Source: Ruminococcus sp. (GTDB lineage Bacteria; Bacillota; Clostridia; Oscillospirales; Ruminococcaceae). From it: 62,227 nt of DNA. Made by a program: the position numbers and the translations under genes. Every line of letters starts with the position of its first letter. Position 1 is the stretch's first letter. The notes under the pieces were generated by a model, which did no database searches, was not told the origin of the DNA, and saw only the letters and a program-made list of their open reading frames with translations. Location: assembly GCA_017521805.1 (NCBI GenBank), contig JAFXDK010000035.1, forward strand, positions 1-62,227, written 5' to 3'. Below, piece by piece: positions 36,666-48,272 of the stretch.

Positions 36666-39296
36666 ATGGAATTTAAAAAACGTTTTATGTCAATGGCTTT
36701 TGCCATGTCAGTAACTGCATCGACGCTTCCAGTAGGCACTCTGACGTCAAATGCAGGTAACACACAGCTTTTCATCAATGAGGTGTGTACGCAGAACAAA
36801 TCATGCCTTTCCGACGGATATGGCGCTTATTCCGACTGGATCGAACTGTACAACAGCGGAACAACTTCAATTGACCTGTCAGGCTACGGATTATCTGACA
36901 AAGCTGCTGAACCTTTACAATGGACTTTTCCGACAGGTACAGTTATAGGCGGCGGAGAGCATATGATTGTTTTTGCCTCAAATCAGGAATCAATGGGCTC
37001 TGAGCTTCATGCCAAATTTGCTTTGAGTAAAAACGGCGAAACAATTGTTTTAAGCACTCCCGACGGAAATATTTTACAGGAAATTACAGTTCCCACACTG
37101 GCTGAGGATTACTCCTACGGACGCACTCCCGACGGAAGTGATGTGTTTGAAATAATGAACGCAACCCCTGCAAATCCGAATAAAATAGTTGCATCTGCAC
37201 CTGTATTTTCCGCTGGCTCGGGATTTTACGGAACAGATTTTTCACTTTCCCTTTCTGTATCTGATAATTCTGAAATATATTATACTACAGACGGAACAAA
37301 TCCCACAACATCGGATACTGCGCAGAAATATAGCTCTGCTATTTCCGTTAGAGACAGAACAAATGAACCGAATATCTACAGCGTATATGCTGAAAATGAA
37401 TACTCTGCTACTTCAATTTCAAGAGGTACAGGCTATCAGAAACCGCCCTTTAACGTGGATAAGGCAACGGTAGTCCGTGCCGTTGCCAAAAACAGCGACG
37501 GTACATTCAGCAACGTTATAAGCCAGACATATTTCATCACATCGGGAGCGCTGGCACAGTATAAGGATATGACGGTTGTTTCACTTGTTACGGACCCCGA
37601 AAATCTCTTTGATCCCGACAAGGGAATTTATGTAACGGGAACACAGTATATCAACTGGAGAAATAGCAGCGATTACAATCCTGCGAAAAGCCCCTGGGAT
37701 AACACAGGTATAAGCAATTTCTTCTCAAAGGGCAGAGATTGGGAGCGTGAGGCTACTATTACATTTATAAAGAACGGAAATACCGTAGTTGAGCAGAATA
37801 TGGGTATACGTATAAAAGGTGCTTCAACGAGAAATACACCGCAGAAAAGCTTTAACCTTTATGCGAGAAGTGAATACGGCGCTTCAAAAATAAACTATCC
37901 TCTTATCGAAAACAACTATGACATTGACGGAAATCTTATAGACAAATATGATTCTGTGTGCCTCCGTTCAGTCAGCGACGAAGCACGTCTCCGTGACGGC
38001 TTTGCGCAGAAACTTGTGTATGAACGCGATGATATTACCAATCAGGATATGGAATCATGTGTCGTGTTCCTCAACGGCGAATATTGGGGACTTTATGAAA
38101 TGACAGAGAAGTTTTCCGATTATTTCATAGAATCAAACTATGGCATACAAAAAGAAAATGTGGGAATGATAAAGAACGGCGAGCTTGAGGAGGGTGACGA
38201 TTATCTTCTTGACGAGTACTACGATTTTATGTATGACTATGCCTCTAAGGATTTGACAAATCCTGTAAATTATCAGGCAGTATGTGATTATATCGACATT
38301 GACAGCTTTATTGAGCACTATGCCGCAGGACTTTATCTCGGTACATACGACTGGCCTAACTATAACTATGGCGTATGGAAAAATACAGGAGAGGCTATTG
38401 ACGGCAACCCCTACAGCGACGGCAAATGGCGTTTTATGTCCTTTGACTACGACTATACAATGGGCGCAACATATGCCGATTTTGGCGGAGTTGAGGGCTA
38501 TGCTTATGACAGTTTCAGACATATGGACAACTCAAAGAAGGACGTTCCTACAAATCTCTTTGTAAATCTGCTGAAAAATAAGGAATTCCGCACTAAATTC
38601 GCCAATGTTTACTGCGATTATGCAAATGAAGTTCTCACAGAACAAAATGGAAATGCAATGGCTGATTTCTATTTGCAGAACTACACAGAGAAGATTTCAA
38701 ACAGTATTCTCCGCTGGTGGGGATTTTACGGCGGTTCAAAGGACAGCAACTACAACTATAACCGTCAGCAGTACACAGAGAAAAATATCCCCGGTATAAG
38801 GCAGTTTTTCAGAGAAAGAGCGTCCTATACTCTTGAAGATATGAAGAATTATCTTGGCATAGGCGGCGATTTACAGACGATTACCCTGAAAACCAACGGC
38901 GGCGGAAAAATTATGATAAACTCAATTATTCCCGATACTTTAAAGGGCAGCTGGAATGGCAAATATTTGTCCACTTGCCCTGTAACTCTTACGGCAATTC
39001 CCGACGACAACGCCTCATTTACAGGCTGGGGCGGTGATGTTTCGGGTACTGATAATACTATTACAGTTACTCTTTCAAAGGCAATGAGTATAACTGCTGA
39101 TTTCGGTGAGAAAAAAGAAGTTAAGGGTGATGTCAACAGCGACGGAAGTTTAACCGTTGCCGACCTTGTAATGCTTGAAAAATGGCTGCTGGGTTCGGGA
39201 AATGTTACCGATTGGCAGGCAGGAGATTTGTGCAAAGACGGTATACTCGATGTGTTTGATATGTGTATTATGAGAGAGGAGATTATCAAGAAATAA
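36666..39296 (+). CDS. Secreted lamin-tail/CotH protein with dockerin
   Basis: 876 residues. The signal peptide (to about 31) is followed by a lamin-tail domain (about 32-175: FINEVCTQNK, YSDWIELYNSG, LSGYGLSDK), a chitobiase/hexosaminidase C-terminal-type domain (about 180-290: IYYTTDGTNPTTSD) and a CotH domain (about 300-620). In the CotH domain MGIRIKGASTRNTPQKSFNL, YEMTEKFSDYF and FDYDYTMG hold the kinase-like residues. A bacterial repeat domain (TGWGGDVSG) and a C-terminal dockerin (DVNSDGSLTVAD, DLCKDGILDVFD) complete it. CotH proteins are unusual protein kinases. Dockerin-bearing CotH proteins occur in ruminococcal cellulosomes, where their role is unknown. Confidence 0.92.
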   Translation: MEFKKRFMSMAFAMSVTASTLPVGTLTSNAGNTQLFINEVCTQNKSCLSDGYGAYSDWIELYNSGTTSIDLSGYGLSDKAAEPLQWTFPTGTVIGGGEHMIVFASNQESMGSELHAKFALSKNGETIVLSTPDGNILQEITVPTLAEDYSYGRTPDGSDVFEIMNATPANPNKIVASAPVFSAGSGFYGTDFSLSLSVSDNSEIYYTTDGTNPTTSDTAQKYSSAISVRDRTNEPNIYSVYAENEYSATSISRGTGYQKPPFNVDKATVVRAVAKNSDGTFSNVISQTYFITSGALAQYKDMTVVSLVTDPENLFDPDKGIYVTGTQYINWRNSSDYNPAKSPWDNTGISNFFSKGRDWEREATITFIKNGNTVVEQNMGIRIKGASTRNTPQKSFNLYARSEYGASKINYPLIENNYDIDGNLIDKYDSVCLRSVSDEARLRDGFAQKLVYERDDITNQDMESCVVFLNGEYWGLYEMTEKFSDYFIESNYGIQKENVGMIKNGELEEGDDYLLDEYYDFMYDYASKDLTNPVNYQAVCDYIDIDSFIEHYAAGLYLGTYDWPNYNYGVWKNTGEAIDGNPYSDGKWRFMSFDYDYTMGATYADFGGVEGYAYDSFRHMDNSKKDVPTNLFVNLLKNKEFRTKFANVYCDYANEVLTEQNGNAMADFYLQNYTEKISNSILRWWGFYGGSKDSNYNYNRQQYTEKNIPGIRQFFRERASYTLEDMKNYLGIGGDLQTITLKTNGGGKIMINSIIPDTLKGSWNGKYLSTCPVTLTAIPDDNASFTGWGGDVSGTDNTITVTLSKAMSITADFGEKKEVKGDVNSDGSLTVADLVMLEKWLLGSGNVTDWQAGDLCKDGILDVFDMCIMREEIIKK

Positions 39297-42821: not shown

Positions 42822-43453
42822 ATGAATATTATAAAAATTGATGGTCTTACAAAAAATATGATAGCCTAACTGCTGTAAACAACATTTCCTTTTCCGTACA
42901 GAAAGGGGAATTGCTGGGATTTCTCGGTGTAAATGGTGCCGGTAAATCCACAACTATAAACATGCTTTCAACTCTTATCCGCTCTGATAACGGAACTACT
43001 CATTACATGGAAGAAGCTGCACAGGCTGGCAGAATCATTATTATCAGCAAAGGCAATATAATAGCTGAGGGTACGCCAAACGAACTGAAAACACGATATG
43101 CCGCAGATTCTCTCCGTATTTACTGCAACAGCCAGAAAATCCCAATATTGAAAAGCCGTTTTTCTACAGCAAAGGAAACGGATAACGGCATAAATCTGAT
43201 AATTTCTACAACAATGGAAGCATTGCCCATACTCGACGAAATTAAAGACATAATCAACGGATTTGAAGTAATACAGGGCACTATGGACGATGTATATCAG
43301 AATTTATTAAATATTTCTGTTTTATCACAACAAAGACAAAAAATAAACAAAAACATCGGTAAGGTAACATTTTACTTCACCGATGTTTTGCTTTATTGTT
43401 TAGAGATTTCCTATAGTTACAATGTGAATTTGGGCATGGGCTCTATTTTGTGA
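42822..43453 (+). pseudogene. Decayed ABC transporter ATPase: frameshift plus internal deletion
   Basis: From the ATG at 42822 the frame reads MNIIKIDGLTK and hits a stop within 16 codons. Adding one A to the A6 run at 42851-42856 restores TKKYDSLTAVNNISFSVQKGE and leads into Walker A, GVNGAGKST. Then SDNG is joined directly to TTHYMEEA. In intact homologues about 100 residues with the signature and Walker B lie between these points, so an in-frame deletion has removed the catalytic core. The C-terminal part (GRIIIISKGNIIAEGTPNELK) is still readable, and the frame runs on through a terminator. No permease gene remains beside it. Confidence 0.85.
43349..43390. terminator. Terminator between ABC remnant and NAD operon
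   Basis: ACATCGGT (43353-43360) and ACCGATGT (43379-43386), extended by a partly paired inner stem and flanked by A and T runs, can serve both strands. Confidence 0.8.
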
Positions 43454-44562
43454 CGGCTTGCATTGTGCATATTGTCAATTCTTTCTTTAAGCTGAATGTT
43501 TTCGCTTAAAGTGTCATATCCGCGTATATAATTATCAAGGTCTGAATAGGTAAAACCGAAATTATCCTCATCAGTTTTGCCGCTTAAACCGTCAATTGGA
43601 ACTTTATGCACAAGGGCATAGGGAAGCTTTAAATAATCGCCTATACTTAGAATTTCTGTTACTGTTAAATCACCAAGAATACTGAAATCTCCTGCATTGT
43701 CACCGAATTTTGTGGAATATCCCACCCAATCCTCTGACAGATTGCAGGTGTTCACAACCCTGCCTCCTACGCATGCCGCAACAGCATAAAGTGTTGTCAT
43801 GCGAAGTCTTGCAGGAGTATTAATAATCGCCTGTTTAGATATACTGATTTTGCCGCTCAACTGATTCATAAGCCCGCTGTATGCGTCGGCAATATTGACC
43901 TCAATGCTATCAATCCCAAGAAATTCAACGATTTTTCTGCTGCAATCAATATCAGCCTGTTCTCCTTGGGGCATAAGAACTCCAAGAACCCGATCTTTAC
44001 CAAGAGCTTTAACACACAAAGCCGCACAAATTGAGCTGTCCTTTCCTCCTGATATGCCGATAATAGCCTTAGTTGACAGTGAACCGTTTTTTTGAAAATA
44101 TTCTTTTATCCAGTCAATTATATCAGTAGTAGTCTTTACAGCGTTAAAACCGCGTAATTCGTTTCTGATACACATGAGAATTCTGCCAAGATAATTTTCT
44201 CCTTTTCCATTTACCATTCCCCAGAATGTATCACCGTGGTTATTGCCCTCTACAAGTTCTTCGTTTCCAGTAGCCAGAAGTCTGACAGCAAGCTCCGGAT
44301 GCTGTATAAATTTCGCTCTGCATATCTCATACATTACATCAACTTTTATATCTTCCCAGTCGGGACGGAGTTTTATTTCTCTGCCAAGACTTTTTGCATC
44401 TGAGGGAGACAGAAGAGCAAATTTCTTGCGGATTTCTTTATCTTTTGTTTTTTGTGCCTGAAATGCTGCTTCTGTACTGAGATAGGTTTTATCTTTATAG
44501 GTAACGGAACATTCAAAGAAGTTGCTTAAATAATCATTTTTACCAACAAATCTGCCAATCAT
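43417..44562 (-). CDS. nadE: Fusion: NADAR (YbiA-like) domain + ammonia-dependent NAD synthetase
   Basis: 381 residues from the ATG at 44562, which overlaps the stop of the preceding gene by one base. Residues 1 to about 138 are a NADAR/YbiA domain: LSNFF, TEAAFQAQK (Glu 31) and EGNNHGDTFWG (105-115) with NYLGRILMCIR. The rest is NadE: the ATP-pyrophosphatase loop SGGKDSS (171-177), LSEDWVGYSTKFGD and PIDGLSGKTDEDNFG. No glutaminase domain is present, so ammonia is the donor. NadE turns nicotinic acid adenine dinucleotide into NAD; NADAR domains handle ADP-ribose-type N-glycosides. Joining them in one protein is uncommon and is the key oddity of this operon. Confidence 0.93.
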   Translation of the reverse strand: MIGRFVGKNDYLSNFFECSVTYKDKTYLSTEAAFQAQKTKDKEIRKKFALLSPSDAKSLGREIKLRPDWEDIKVDVMYEICRAKFIQHPELAVRLLATGNEELVEGNNHGDTFWGMVNGKGENYLGRILMCIRNELRGFNAVKTTTDIIDWIKEYFQKNGSLSTKAIIGISGGKDSSICAALCVKALGKDRVLGVLMPQGEQADIDCSRKIVEFLGIDSIEVNIADAYSGLMNQLSGKISISKQAIINTPARLRMTTLYAVAACVGGRVVNTCNLSEDWVGYSTKFGDNAGDFSILGDLTVTEILSIGDYLKLPYALVHKVPIDGLSGKTDEDNFGFTYSDLDNYIRGYDTLSENIQLKERIDNMHNASRHKIEPMPKFTL

Positions 44563-46088
44563 CAAAAATCACCTCTGTGAAGAATATTTCTTATTTCAGC
44601 AAGTGTATATTCCTTTATCATTTTACCGTTGCGGAACACGGGAATAAGCATATTTTTATCAGCTATATTGCCGATAGTTTTGCTTGTATATCCGTCCTTG
44701 CAAATTATATTGCCTATTTCATCGCAGCATACACAGCACATACCCTTATGAGATTTCTTGCTGATTTCTTTAGCTGGGTCAAGCTCAACAGGAACAAACT
44801 CACCGTTTATTTTTTCATAGCTTTTAGGAGCCTTGAAAATTGGTATGCAGTTTCCCTGATTATCTTCACAATAAGTAGCTTTTACAGCAATATGGAATGT
44901 ATCTCTTGTGTACGGCGCAAGCTTATCGCCTGTTTCAAGGCACTGCATGGAGAAACTGCCAACACCCAATGCCACATTATTGCAAGCAAAACCGTTTTTC
45001 TTGAGGATTGAGTAGACCTTTTCTGCTCTCTGTGGGGTAATAGAATCACCGTATATAGCCTTTATGTGCGAATCAAGGACTTTATATCCCTTTGAGTTGA
45101 CTGTTCCGCCAAAGATATCCCACAATCTGAAAACAGTTTCTGTTACAACTTCAACGGGGTTGCCACTGTCGCCTCTGACAAGCATTGTGCCGTTATGGTT
45201 GAGTATTTCCTCTTTAAGCTGAGGGATAATATTATTTACTATATTCCAGTAGTCGTAGCTGTCAGATACAACTGAGAAAGATGTATCAGGATAAAGCTCA
45301 TTGAGAAGTCGTCTAAACATTGTGATTTCATCGCCGTCTATAGCGAAATTTGAACACATTACAGAATGTTCAGTAGATACTGCACCATATGCAACAGGTT
45401 CTTTTGTGCAGTCGCAGTTGTAATATTTTTCAAGATAGGGGATAGCAGGAACTGTTGCCGTGTTGAGAAATGAAAGACAGAAAGCCGCGGAAGATTTTAC
45501 TGCAGACGAAAGTGATTCCTGACCTCTGAAAGAGAAATCTCCCAGTGCCTTGGCTCTTGGTACATCGTCCTCAACAGTTTCAGCATAGTATTTATTAACA
45601 ATCTGACGGTACATATAGCCAACATTTGCGGAAATCATACCATGCCACATTTCAGCAGAAAGAACGCTTTCAATATACTCAACAATCCACGGAAAATCGG
45701 GATGTGTATTTGTGAGCTGAATCATAGGCACTTTTACAGGAATTCTTGTACCCTCGGGAACCGCAGAAATCTCAATGGGAAGATAGCCTAATCTGTGAAG
45801 ATTTCGAATCATTTCCTTGTCGTAGCCCTGACTGCCGAGAGTGTTGTCTATTATACGGAAGTATTCCTCAGTAACTTCCTCAAAGGGCTTTTCAAAGAAG
45901 TTCTTATTGAAATTTTCAATGAGAAACTCTTTAATAAATGCTTGTAAACCGAAGTGAATGAGCTTATCCTGTCCACTTATACGGCTGCCTCTCGGAGTGA
46001 GATATGACACAATTTTCGTGAGATTTTTCGGATACATTTTAGCGTGTGTTGACTTGTAAAAATCAATATTTAACATAGGATTATACAT
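44562..46088 (-). CDS. NAMPT-like phosphoribosyl (or ADP-ribosyl) transferase
   Basis: 508 residues from the ATG at 46088, nine bases behind AAAGGAG. The fold is that of nicotinamide phosphoribosyltransferase: DFYKSTHAKMYP, GDFSFRGQES with Asp 184 at the position of human Asp 219 (which selects the amide form), STEHS with the catalytic His 241, VVSDSYD, and RGDSGNP with Asp 307. Differences from the eukaryotic enzyme include Gly for Pro in RPDSGNP and GVGSF for the GSGGG phosphate loop. It could make NMN from PRPP, or NAD directly from ADP-ribose pyrophosphate, as the phage enzyme Namat does. Sequence alone does not decide. Confidence 0.88.
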   Translation of the reverse strand: MYNPMLNIDFYKSTHAKMYPKNLTKIVSYLTPRGSRISGQDKLIHFGLQAFIKEFLIENFNKNFFEKPFEEVTEEYFRIIDNTLGSQGYDKEMIRNLHRLGYLPIEISAVPEGTRIPVKVPMIQLTNTHPDFPWIVEYIESVLSAEMWHGMISANVGYMYRQIVNKYYAETVEDDVPRAKALGDFSFRGQESLSSAVKSSAAFCLSFLNTATVPAIPYLEKYYNCDCTKEPVAYGAVSTEHSVMCSNFAIDGDEITMFRRLLNELYPDTSFSVVSDSYDYWNIVNNIIPQLKEEILNHNGTMLVRGDSGNPVEVVTETVFRLWDIFGGTVNSKGYKVLDSHIKAIYGDSITPQRAEKVYSILKKNGFACNNVALGVGSFSMQCLETGDKLAPYTRDTFHIAVKATYCEDNQGNCIPIFKAPKSYEKINGEFVPVELDPAKEISKKSHKGMCCVCCDEIGNIICKDGYTSKTIGNIADKNMLIPVFRNGKMIKEYTLAEIRNILHRGDF

Positions 46089-46089
46089 A

Positions 46090-46920
46090 TCAGACAACTC
46101 CTTTCATGCAATCGAATTTATGAAGTATGTGATTATCGGGCAGTGTACAAAGGGAATCCGTAGTAAAAATTCTGTCAATTAAACCACATTTCAGCAATTC
46201 CCCTTTTTCAATTGAGTTTTCACAATGAGTAAAGAACACATTGATTTCATCGCAGTTCAGCTGTTTCAGTTTTTTAGCGGAGTGATAAACAGTACCGCCA
46301 TATGAGCAGATATCATCAACGATAAGCATTTTTTTTCCAGTGGGAGTATCGCCGTATACATCAAATCCAAGAATTTTGCCTGTTGCCCAATCTCGTTTTT
46401 TTAAGCCAAAGCCAATATTTTTGCAATCAGTAAAGTATTTTGTGTATCTCTTACAGCTGCCTTCATCGGGGAAAAATATATAATCATTCTGAGAATCAAA
46501 ATTAATTATACTTCTCGTTTTAGATAAAAATACTTCTGGAGAAAGATTTACACAGTGTTCAAGAAGTGCAGCGCCAACAGAGGAATGAACATCAAGCACC
46601 ATAACCTTTGTGAAATTGAGCGAGTTAATAAGTCTGCAGAAATATTTCAGAGTGAAAACCTCAGTTTCGCTGTGTACTCTGTCCATTCTTGCGTTGGGCA
46701 GATAAGGGAGATACAGCTGTATATCAGCAAAAGGGTATCTTTCGCGGATATTGCCTGTCAAATAAGCAAGCTGCATAAATTCCGCTTCACACTCAAACTT
46801 CCATATTAATATTGCTGATTTCACATCTGTTTCCTTGATATCGATTTTCATCGTGCCGTCTGGATAACTTATCTTTTCAGTCACTTTCGGAGTTGCCCCG
46901 TTTATGCTGTATAAAATCAT
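46090..46920 (-). CDS. Short PRPP-synthetase-like enzyme (possible ADP-ribose pyrophosphate synthetase)
   Basis: 276 residues, against about 315 for ordinary ribose-phosphate pyrophosphokinase. PYLPNARMDR (72-81) replaces the usual PYxxYARQDR. DVHSS (110-114) is the divalent-cation site, PDEGS (151-155) replaces PDxGG, and MLIVDDICSYGGTV (198-211) is the PRPP loop. It ends one base before the NAMPT-like gene. In phages, pairs of such proteins either supply PRPP to NAMPT or make ADP-ribose pyrophosphate for direct NAD synthesis. GGGAGG lies in front of the ATG. Divergence from housekeeping Prs suggests a special role. Confidence 0.85.
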   Translation of the reverse strand: MILYSINGATPKVTEKISYPDGTMKIDIKETDVKSAILIWKFECEAEFMQLAYLTGNIRERYPFADIQLYLPYLPNARMDRVHSETEVFTLKYFCRLINSLNFTKVMVLDVHSSVGAALLEHCVNLSPEVFLSKTRSIINFDSQNDYIFFPDEGSCKRYTKYFTDCKNIGFGLKKRDWATGKILGFDVYGDTPTGKKMLIVDDICSYGGTVYHSAKKLKQLNCDEINVFFTHCENSIEKGELLKCGLIDRIFTTDSLCTLPDNHILHKFDCMKGVV

Positions 46921-46931
46921 ATTAACCTCCC

Positions 46932-47459
46932 TCAGATAACATCAATCTGACACATTTTCATAGCTTCCAATGCCCTGCTGTGAGATTCAGGAGTAACTCC
47001 CGCGCAGCATTTGCTGTTGACAATTATTTTCGTCTCAGGGAAAAATGTCTTGAGAATCATAGCATTTGAAATAACACATATGTCTGTGCAAACTCCCGCA
47101 AGTTCAATTTCATCGGGAACGCCTCCACATACATCAATCACACGCTGAGGAAGCTCCTTTGAACCGAAAGTTATTTTTTCAACAGCACGGCTTTCATCGC
47201 CAATAATCTCCATAAGTTCGGGAATCAGTCTGTGTCCCTCTGTGCCTTTAATGCAGTGGGGGACAGGGAGATTTTTTCCCTCCTGTGTATCGTTGTAGTT
47301 TTCGTAATGAGTATCAAGAGTATAGAGGATTTCAGTTCCCTCTCCAATGATCTCTTTTACTCTGTCAGTCATTGGTTCAGCTACTGCAAGAGTTTGAGGA
47401 TTACCTAATGCGCCGCTTATAAAATCATTCTGCATATCAATTACAATAAAAACCTTCAT
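46932..47459 (-). CDS. pncA: Nicotinamidase
   Basis: 175 residues. The catalytic triad is readable: Asp 8 (IVIDMQNDF), Lys 95 (VEKITF) and the nucleophile Cys 128 (CTDICV). Metal ligands Asp 49 and His 51 are in LDTHYENY. HCIKGTEGHRL is a family hallmark. It converts nicotinamide to nicotinic acid. It overlaps the Nudix gene by 4 bases, so it belongs to the NAD operon. The deamidated route needs NadE, whose gene is last in the same operon. Confidence 0.92.
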   Translation of the reverse strand: MKVFIVIDMQNDFISGALGNPQTLAVAEPMTDRVKEIIGEGTEILYTLDTHYENYNDTQEGKNLPVPHCIKGTEGHRLIPELMEIIGDESRAVEKITFGSKELPQRVIDVCGGVPDEIELAGVCTDICVISNAMILKTFFPETKIIVNSKCCAGVTPESHSRALEAMKMCQIDVI

Positions 47460-48205
47460 ACCTTTACACTTCTCCTTTTATATAATTTCGACGGTCTGTG
47501 CATAGCACCGCCGTTCTCAAACATATCTGTTTCTTCAATTTTCTTTGCCATTTTACGTCTGAAATTTGCTGCAGCTTCTTTTCTTTCTGTTATTATTTCG
47601 TAGGGAATTTGCAAATCCGCAATAGTGAAATATTCAGGAAGCAATTCAAAAATAATATCGTGATTTATAACTTCATCTTTAAGCTTTAAAAATGCATCAT
47701 AAATTATCTGTGCGTGGTCAAATGCGAGTTCATCCGATACAGCTTTGCCGTTATTTATTTTAATAGTTATTTCGCCGTTATTGATAATTATTACACTATC
47801 TTTCATCTCAAACGTCATCCAGCAGGAGCTTTCAGCGTCAGATATCTCAGCTGTATGTGTATCAATTGTGCGTATAAGTGCCAGAAAAGCACATGATATA
47901 ATCCAGCCGCGCGGGTCTCTGTTAGGGGCGCTGTAAGTTTTCATTGGTATCAGAGTTGCATTACTGATTCCTGTTTCCTCGTTGAGTTCACGGATAGCGG
48001 CATTTTCTATAGTTTCAGTAGGTCTGAGAAATCCGCCGGGGAGAGAAAACTGAGATTTGTAAGGCTCCTCGCCTCGTTTTATAAGAAGGATTTTCAGCAT
48101 TTTGTTGTCGAGCTCTCGTTTGTTTTCAGATTTTTCACTGTCAATGCCAAATGTTACAATATCAGCTGCAACAGAGGGTCTTTCATAATCTTTATAACTG
48201 TTCAT
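47456..48205 (-). CDS. NrtR-type Nudix regulator of NAD metabolism
   Basis: 249 residues. The Nudix box from Gly 58 to Gly 79 is complete (GFLRPTE, then RELNEETG with Arg 72, Glu 73, Glu 76 and Glu 77), so hydrolysis of ADP-ribose is possible; several NrtR proteins have lost it. The C-terminal 75 residues form the NrtR winged helix: LLPEYFTIADLQIPYE, NFRRKMAK and RPSKLYKRR. Known NrtR proteins repress NAD synthesis genes and let go when bound to ADP-ribose. As first gene of the operon it probably controls itself. AAGGAG lies before the ATG. Confidence 0.9.
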   Translation of the reverse strand: MNSYKDYERPSVAADIVTFGIDSEKSENKRELDNKMLKILLIKRGEEPYKSQFSLPGGFLRPTETIENAAIRELNEETGISNATLIPMKTYSAPNRDPRGWIISCAFLALIRTIDTHTAEISDAESSCWMTFEMKDSVIIINNGEITIKINNGKAVSDELAFDHAQIIYDAFLKLKDEVINHDIIFELLPEYFTIADLQIPYEIITERKEAAANFRRKMAKKIEETDMFENGGAMHRPSKLYKRRSVKV

Positions 48206-48236
48206 TGGTATTACTCCTTAAATATAATTTGTTTGT

Positions 48237-48272
48237 TATTATTATAATAATACTATCTTGCTCATTTGTCAA
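48237..48272 (-). promoter_or_regulatory. Promoter of the NAD operon with possible NrtR site
   Basis: In the minus direction TTGACA (48272-48267), 17 bases, TATTAT (48249-48244). A 16-base AT-only palindrome, TATTATTATAATAATA (48237-48252), covers the -10 region and is a candidate operator, though its simple composition makes chance possible. Confidence 0.7.

Follow-up and report, generated by a model that had tools for sequence, protein, structure and literature searches.

Does a bacterial operon rebuild nicotinamide adenine dinucleotide (NAD) from ADP-ribose, and if so, with which form of the base? This question is raised by a 62,227-nucleotide stretch of Ruminococcus sp. DNA (contig JAFXDK010000035.1 of assembly GCA_017521805.1; the whole stretch is called the window below), whose minus strand carries, at 43417-48205, a run of five genes comprising nrtR, pncA, an Adps-like gene, a Namat-like gene and a NADAR::nadE fusion. 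Adps and Namat are the two enzymes of the phage NAD reconstitution pathway NARP1, in which Adps converts ADP-ribose to ADP-ribose pyrophosphate (ADPR-PP) and Namat joins ADPR-PP to nicotinamide, yielding NAD (PMC12774641). From the placement of the two proteins, the residues of the transferase pocket and the genes that accompany its relatives, we consider it probable that the Ruminococcus operon encodes a nicotinate-using variant of this pathway, in which ADP-ribose would be turned into ADPR-PP, combined with nicotinate to give nicotinic acid adenine dinucleotide (NaAD), and finally amidated to NAD.

Placement of the two central enzymes

The Namat-like protein (44562-46088, minus strand; 508 residues counted from its ATG), a predicted nicotinate-type transferase, matches the Pfam families NAMPT_N and NAPRTase. 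Against proteins of solved structure it scores 375 bits with the Namat of phage SPbetaL1 (9W5X, 9W5W), 283 bits with 9ke8, an entry that its depositors named NAMPT, and 161-173 bits with other NAMPT entries, the human one included. A tree of 95 rows left after thinning (45 nicotinate-type, 45 other Namat and 5 NAMPTs) sets the 90 Namat-type rows apart from the five phage NAMPTs with a Shimodaira-Hasegawa-like approximate likelihood ratio test (SH-aLRT) value of 100. Its neighbor (46090-46920, minus strand; 276 residues), a predicted ADP-ribose pyrophosphokinase of the Prs superfamily, scores 145 bits with SPbetaL1 Adps and stays below the cut-off of the Prs model TIGR01251 (86.5 bits, cut-off 113); its match to Pfam Pribosyltran is weak and likewise below cut-off. 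It is one of 106 Adps-type rows that a second tree, flagged with long-branch warnings, separates from 28 Prs (SH-aLRT 95). A reading of the locus made from the sequence alone (the sequence-only reading) had asked whether the two proteins cluster with ordinary Prs and NAMPT, and this check places them with Adps and Namat instead. Because of this grouping, the use of ADP-ribose is favored over plain salvage from 5-phosphoribosyl 1-pyrophosphate (PRPP) with nicotinate, which stays the main rival.

A changed base pocket beside a kept donor pocket

To compare the sites, 143 transferases were aligned and inspected at the contact residues given in the SPbetaL1 Namat structure paper (PMC12774641), whose numbering is used throughout. 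Asp215 and Ala242 are nicotinamide contacts in that enzyme, and Asp215 holds the amide (PMC12774641). The window transferase has Ala211 and Ser238 at these two places, and Ala for Asp215 and Ser for Ala242 are found in 82/82 members of its clade, which is a single one (SH-aLRT 100) nested within the Asp215 Namats. Other swaps on the amide side accompany them in most of the 82 (S239G in 80, H187G in 77, G213N in 77). All five residues are retained by the 56 other Namats without exception, while the five NAMPTs retain Asp215, Ala242, Gly213 and Ser239 throughout and His187 in three cases. The corresponding residues of human NAMPT, matched by motif (191, 217 and 219 for 187, 213 and 215), have been described as well: one wall of the same tunnel is formed by His191, Gly217 and Asp219, the first and last of which are bonded to each other (PMC4186856), and Asp219 is reportedly fundamental for substrate specificity (PMC7096376, citing Khan et al.). 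Profile alignment between Namat and 29 PncB proteins of the genus covers just 88-89 columns near the C-terminus and falls short of the base pocket, so that the comparison with PncB is based on motifs; by this match, GTSN (29/29) and GT[YF]AHE (29/29) put a Ser at the Asp place and a Thr at the Ala place.

The adenine side, in turn, is largely kept. R40 is present in 81 of the 82 (the other has a gap), F392 and T398 in 80 each, and R399 and D400 in all, and the window transferase has equivalents of all five. In the remainder of the site, D13 and Y15 are found in 81 each (one gap), and F189, R192, R306, D308, G360 and G390 in 82/82. The weight of two of these residues is known from SPbetaL1 Namat, where an R40 and F392 double mutant shows an approximately 16.6-fold loss of the ADPR-PP reaction (PMC12774641). 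Judged from the alignment, the residue pattern is that of a changed base and a kept donor. As a separate observation, 34 of the 82 (e.g., L007-L020) have Asp and 3 have Gly in place of Ser190, which contacts phosphate in SPbetaL1 Namat; the window transferase has Ser.

Genes that accompany the transferases

We then considered the company of these transferases, using profiles derived from the window operon to search for pncA, nadE and adps. Of 145 loci with a transferase match, we counted the 143 that gave open reading frames (ORFs) of at least 380 residues, leaving out L089 and L110. Because two IMG/VR searches contributed the best 80 of 573 and the best 80 of 579 confirmed matches, the sample is weighted toward near relatives. 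The 82 Ala215 transferases amount to 74 distinct sequences; L006 and L021 are one protein, probably taken twice from a single contig. Within the fetched stretches, pncA and/or nadE accompany 82/82 Ala215 loci versus 0/61 Asp215 loci; in the latter, with filters off and E values up to 10 admitted, neither gene gave a match better than E 1. The Ala215 loci divide into 70 with pncA, adps and nadE, five with nadE only, three with adps and nadE, two with pncA and adps, and two with pncA and nadE. Since the transferase and its three partners occur together in 70/82 loci and on one strand in 70/70 of these (span 3.5-7.3 kb), the gene set is beyond chance. Among the Asp215 loci, 52 have adps and nine have none of the three genes, the nine being the five NAMPTs and L103, L114, L124 and L149, whose stretches start less than 0.7 kb from the gene.

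As to the 12 incomplete Ala215 loci, the stretches of six (L016, L019, L060, L065, L077 and L097) end less than 1.8 kb from the gene on one side or both. The other six are L049 (without nadE), L057 (without pncA), L090 and L091 (without adps), and L094 and L148 (without pncA and adps); for L090, L091 and L148, an Adps lies elsewhere in the same viral record. Two further genes of the window operon vary in their occurrence. At the threshold used, nrtR-like genes were found in 7/9 loci of the genome_contigs set (absent from L025 and L026) and not in any viral locus of the nicotinate type, with flanks of just 1.5 kb for most genus loci (L005-L020). NADAR and NadE are fused in six loci (L005, which is the window's own copy, L006 and its duplicate L021, and L022-L024); in five others NADAR stands separate, so that it is accessory.

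Exchange of Adps genes between module types

The Adps tree bears on the donor. Adps partners of Ala215 transferases do not form one clade: such a clade occurs in 0% of 200 bootstrap trees and has a p value of 0.039 in the approximately unbiased (AU) test, for which the Prs and eight long-branch Adps rows (L092, L033, L121, L042, L035, L108, L032 and L119) were excluded and the remainder was thinned to 89. At least three changes of module type are forced by the starred branches of the tree. In particular, L076 and L083 are nicotinate-type modules whose Adps sits within the well-supported clade of SPbetaL1 Adps, the Adps assayed in PMC12774641, beside their own pncA, Ala215 transferase and nadE. 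The trees thus indicate that the two module types have exchanged Adps genes. An Adps able to serve either module would be expected to make the same product, ADPR-PP, and the position of L076 and L083 suggests that the Adps substrate is probably the same in both. We regard this exchange as the best indirect evidence on the donor.

Occurrence in gut bacteria and viruses

The module is present in 16/60 genomes of the genus, that of the window included, and was found in 0/39 other genomes of the order; in a sample of 397 further genomes of the phylum, the search gave no strong relative and just two matches, both weak (64 and 21 bits). Viral records account for most of the nicotinate-type loci: 56 of the 82 come from IMG/VR viral contigs and one more from a gut phage record. 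Of the ORFs tested beside the module in six of the viral loci, 9/10 have a match to a PHROG family. The module is thus common to viruses and some gut bacteria. One four-gene module (L025) lies on a 4.7 kb contig filed under the archaeon Candidatus Methanofilum arcanum and is probably misbinned.

NAD genes elsewhere in the host genome

The host genome has a NadD, encoded beside YqeK on contig C7 (TIGR00482, 170 bits, cut-off 112.45), as well as its own Prs, a second NadE and NadC, and it contains no other member of the NAPRTase family. The sequence-only reading had pointed to a missing nicotinic acid mononucleotide (NaMN) adenylyltransferase and had taken the use of ADP-ribose as its explanation. 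This is true of the operon; because the host genome has NadD, the argument is limited to the operon, and the claim that no NadD is available was dropped. Apart from this, the host Prs (L150, C111:91238-92191) is the only match in the genome over the general Prs cut-off, with 171 bits compared to 309-432 for the best Prs in most phylum genomes sampled, and it belongs to the Prs subfamily NF005299 (521.9 bits, cut-off 327).

Proposed route and competing explanations

From these genes we infer the substrates, the order of reactions and the regulation of a pathway as follows. PncA would convert nicotinamide to nicotinic acid, and the Adps-like enzyme would convert ADP-ribose and ATP to ADPR-PP and AMP. 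The Namat-like variant would then combine ADPR-PP with nicotinic acid, in place of nicotinamide, to form NaAD directly, and amidation of NaAD by NadE would give NAD. In this manner both products of NAD cleavage, ADP-ribose and nicotinamide, would be rejoined without NaMN and without NadD. A gene for an NrtR-type repressor heads the module, and the NADAR domain fused to NadE could free ADP-ribose from adducts. It is also likely that the transferase has a side reaction with PRPP, forming NaMN from nicotinate for use by the host NadD; this may be expected because phage Namat keeps PRPP activity with nicotinamide (PMC12774641). The route through nicotinic acid and NaAD to NadE had been offered in brackets by the sequence-only reading and fits both the pocket residues and the gene company, which favor it over the nicotinamide version put forward there; the latter is disfavored because the clade has lost the amide-holding residue and each of its 82 loci has pncA and/or nadE nearby.

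Could the same genes serve plain Preiss-Handler salvage? The Prs-like protein would then make PRPP, the transferase NaMN, the host NadD NaAD and NadE finally NAD, with the operon standing in for a missing PncB. The NAD genes of the host agree with this, since it has NadD and no other NAPRTase-family match, as does the PRPP activity that SPbetaL1 Namat retains (PMC12774641). So does the name of the NCBIfam model NF006629, nicotinate phosphoribosyltransferase, whose cut-off of 405 the window transferase exceeds with 445.6 bits; yet SPbetaL1 Namat (593.7 bits) and two phage NAMPTs (463.7 and 573.6 bits) exceed it as well, as do 9/9 proteins tried in all, so that the model does not discriminate, and we dropped its name as evidence for or against a PncB identity. 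The occurrence of other NAPRT-family proteins seems to point the same way, with 4/16 carriers and 37/44 non-carriers in the genus (Fisher p 3.6e-5; a hand count in which 12 of the 41 matches are weak, at 25-40 bits, and one is a fragment). However, this raw value rests on few lineages. In a SecA tree built for 53 of the 60 genus genomes (the other seven, including two carriers, gave no usable SecA), the carrier state needs four changes, and the independent pairs number just two on starred branches and four on all, so that the Fisher value does not hold up there; moreover, G014, G018 and G049, the closest non-carriers to the window's genome, are also without NAPRT. Mutual exclusion with PncB was accordingly dropped as strong evidence. 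Against salvage of this kind stand the grouping of both proteins with Adps and Namat, the kept adenine-side residues, the exchange of Adps genes with nicotinamide-type modules, and the Prs that the host already has. Taken together, we judge it unlikely as the function of the operon, although it may coexist with the ADP-ribose route as a second activity. Less likely still is an ordinary NARP1 that makes NAD from ADPR-PP and nicotinamide, with pncA and nadE as a separate co-transcribed salvage branch. Family membership speaks for it, and other groups may replace the Asp contact, but the replacement of Asp215 goes together with that of four other amide-side positions, pncA and/or nadE keep company with all 82 of these transferases and with none of the 61 others, and PncA would consume the very nicotinamide that the enzyme needs.

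Several observations also weigh against the nicotinate-using NARP1 variant that we prefer. Tyr396 is gone, and the stretch from G390 to D400 has 20-37 residues in the 82, compared to 11 in most of the other Namats (51/56; four have 18 and one has 12). The published clamp motif, GSX-Phi-X-Phi-X-Phi-TRD with an aromatic at position 7, is replaced in the window transferase by GSFSMQC, nine more residues and YTRD; despite the loss of Tyr396, an aromatic residue directly precedes TRD in 82/82. Common descent and the bulk of the transferase site would make the operon a NARP1 variant, though it lacks Asp215 and the exact clamp motif, which define Namat. One nicotinate-type locus, L094, has no Adps in 164 kb. 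NadM/NadD-like ORFs lie within the stretch in 3/82 Ala215 loci (L057, 7234-7821; L101, 9055-9798; L028, 8930-9946; two viral contigs and one bacterial), compared to 0/56 other Namat loci and 3/5 NAMPT loci. The residue change arose once on the transferase tree, so that the gene company represents one event kept over time and not a set of independent ones. Finally, the Adps trees carry the long-branch warnings mentioned above, the AU p value is just 0.039 with the eight long-branch rows and the Prs left out, and NCBIfam names the window transferase a nicotinate phosphoribosyltransferase, even if that name decides nothing.

A further question, which fits either chemistry, is whether the module acts in housekeeping recycling or as an anti-defense or defense-recovery cassette. 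The latter is suggested by the viral contigs and the gut phage record among the nicotinate-type loci, and by the finding that NAD-depleting systems are countered by a phage NARP1 and, in Escherichia coli, by that of one bacterium (PMC12774641). Conversely, the window operon is chromosomal (between hflX and MBOAT genes) and includes an nrtR-like gene, and the host genome has no match to TIR_2 or SIR2_2 (other NADases were not sought). A defense-related role is one that we put forward tentatively, as the less likely of the two.

Layout, promoter and surroundings of the operon

The five-gene NAD operon of the sequence-only reading is borne out in its coordinates, spacing and Pfam domains, and so is a promoter ahead of it. 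Along the direction of transcription, nrtR and pncA overlap by 4 bases, pncA and the Adps-like gene are separated by 11 bases, the Adps-like and Namat-like genes by 1 base, and the Namat-like gene overlaps NADAR::nadE by 1 base. The first gene (47456-48205, minus strand; 249 residues) encodes an NrtR-like Nudix repressor with a C-terminal winged helix, which passes the Pfam cut-offs for NUDIX (57.5 bits) and NrtR_WHD (56.4 bits) and reaches 103 bits with the NCBIfam model NtrR, under its cut-off of 400. Its Nudix box, GFLRPTETIENAAIRELNEETG, is intact and starts at residue 58. Members of the NrtR family respond to ADP-ribose. The PncA-like nicotinamidase of the isochorismatase fold (46932-47459, minus strand; 175 residues; Pfam Isochorismatase, 79.6 bits) has as its closest solved relative 1ilw, a hypothetical pyrazinamidase/nicotinamidase (E 9e-12), and scores just 19.3 bits with the NCBIfam nicotinamidase model (cut-off 174). 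The last gene (43417-44562, minus strand; 381 residues) encodes the fusion of an N-terminal NADAR domain (Pfam, 96.9 bits) with a C-terminal NadE NAD synthase (Pfam NAD_synthase, 160.3 bits; TIGR00552, 162.3 bits, cut-off 63.65), in which no glutaminase domain was found.

The promoter, TTGACA-17-TATTAT (48244-48272, minus strand), agrees with the consensus at 11/12 bases. The same scan yields 22 promoter-like sites in the region, where chance alone would give 17.7. In 6/6 relatives aligned, TTGACA is found at this place as well. Immediately past the -10 element, an AT-rich repeat (48218-48246, minus strand) is a low-confidence candidate for an NrtR operator; a GATAATAAC/GATAATA-like block is seen by eye in five relatives with nrtR and is weaker in the window. 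The surroundings are chromosomal, with hflX, Hsp33 and SecA on one side and MBOAT and DHHW on the other, and the contig belongs to a 2.54 Mb assembly of a Ruminococcus-type genome. By its operon, the nearest named relative is a Ruminococcus metagenome-assembled genome from goat caecum, whose transferase is 94% identical. Converging on the 3' end of the operon is a plus-strand ORF for an ABC-transporter ATPase (42911-43453), which starts inside the domain (profile position 14) and looks like a remnant. Elsewhere in the window, 36666-39296 encodes a CotH kinase with lamin-tail, Fn3-associated and dockerin domains, as in cellulosome-bearing ruminococci.

Relation to known NAD pathways and implications

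With the NARP1 systems of SPbetaL1, Bas63 and Paenibacillus foliorum, the last of which is a bacterial nicotinamide-type NARP1 that has already been demonstrated (PMC12774641), the window operon shares homologous neighboring Adps and Namat, the catalytic core, most adenine-side residues and a placement inside Namat. Its clade differs by the amide-pocket swaps, the loss of Tyr396, a clamp loop at least nine residues over the usual 11, the presence of pncA and/or nadE and a predicted product that is NaAD instead of NAD; an nrtR-like gene sets apart the window and most of the genome_contigs loci. NARP2-type phage salvage by NadV/NAMPT with NadM or NadR likewise uses a transferase of the NAMPT superfamily, but the five phage NAMPTs form a separate clade, none has Adps in its stretch and three have a NadM-like ORF. 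From the Preiss-Handler pathway (PncA-PncB-NadD-NadE) the operon has PncA, NadE and, by prediction, nicotinic acid as the base, whereas it is without PncB or NadD and its predicted donor is ADPR-PP, not PRPP. As in NrtR regulons, a regulator of Nudix and winged-helix domains heads an NAD operon, here with an intact Nudix box and an operator that is just a candidate. Other links between NADAR, ADP-ribose and NAD salvage are on record in phages, namely NADAR domains beside NAD salvage genes (PMC9503650) and a glycosidase that feeds ADP-ribose into NARP1 (PMC13232231). The term "nicotinic acid" is absent from the main text of PMC12774641. Our literature searches surfaced no nicotinate version of NARP1, and the literature covered does not describe the formation of NaAD from ADPR-PP and a base; the founding NARP1 paper (Nature 2024) may mention such operons.

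Beyond the single operon, it is on balance likely that gut bacteria and viruses share a nicotinate-type NAD reconstitution, in which ADPR-PP and nicotinic acid would form NaAD, skipping NaMN and NadD, and PncA and NadE would close the cycle. To our knowledge, the known routes to NaAD pass through NaMN and NadD. If true, a direct route from ADP-ribose to NaAD would be a new entry to NAD and would account for the presence of pncA and nadE in these cassettes. It also predicts, at the level of residues, which base a member of the NAMPT/Namat family uses, and bears on the purpose of bacterial NARP1, which PMC12774641 leaves open. Such a route may allow viruses and bacteria to rebuild NAD where nicotinamide is quickly deamidated.

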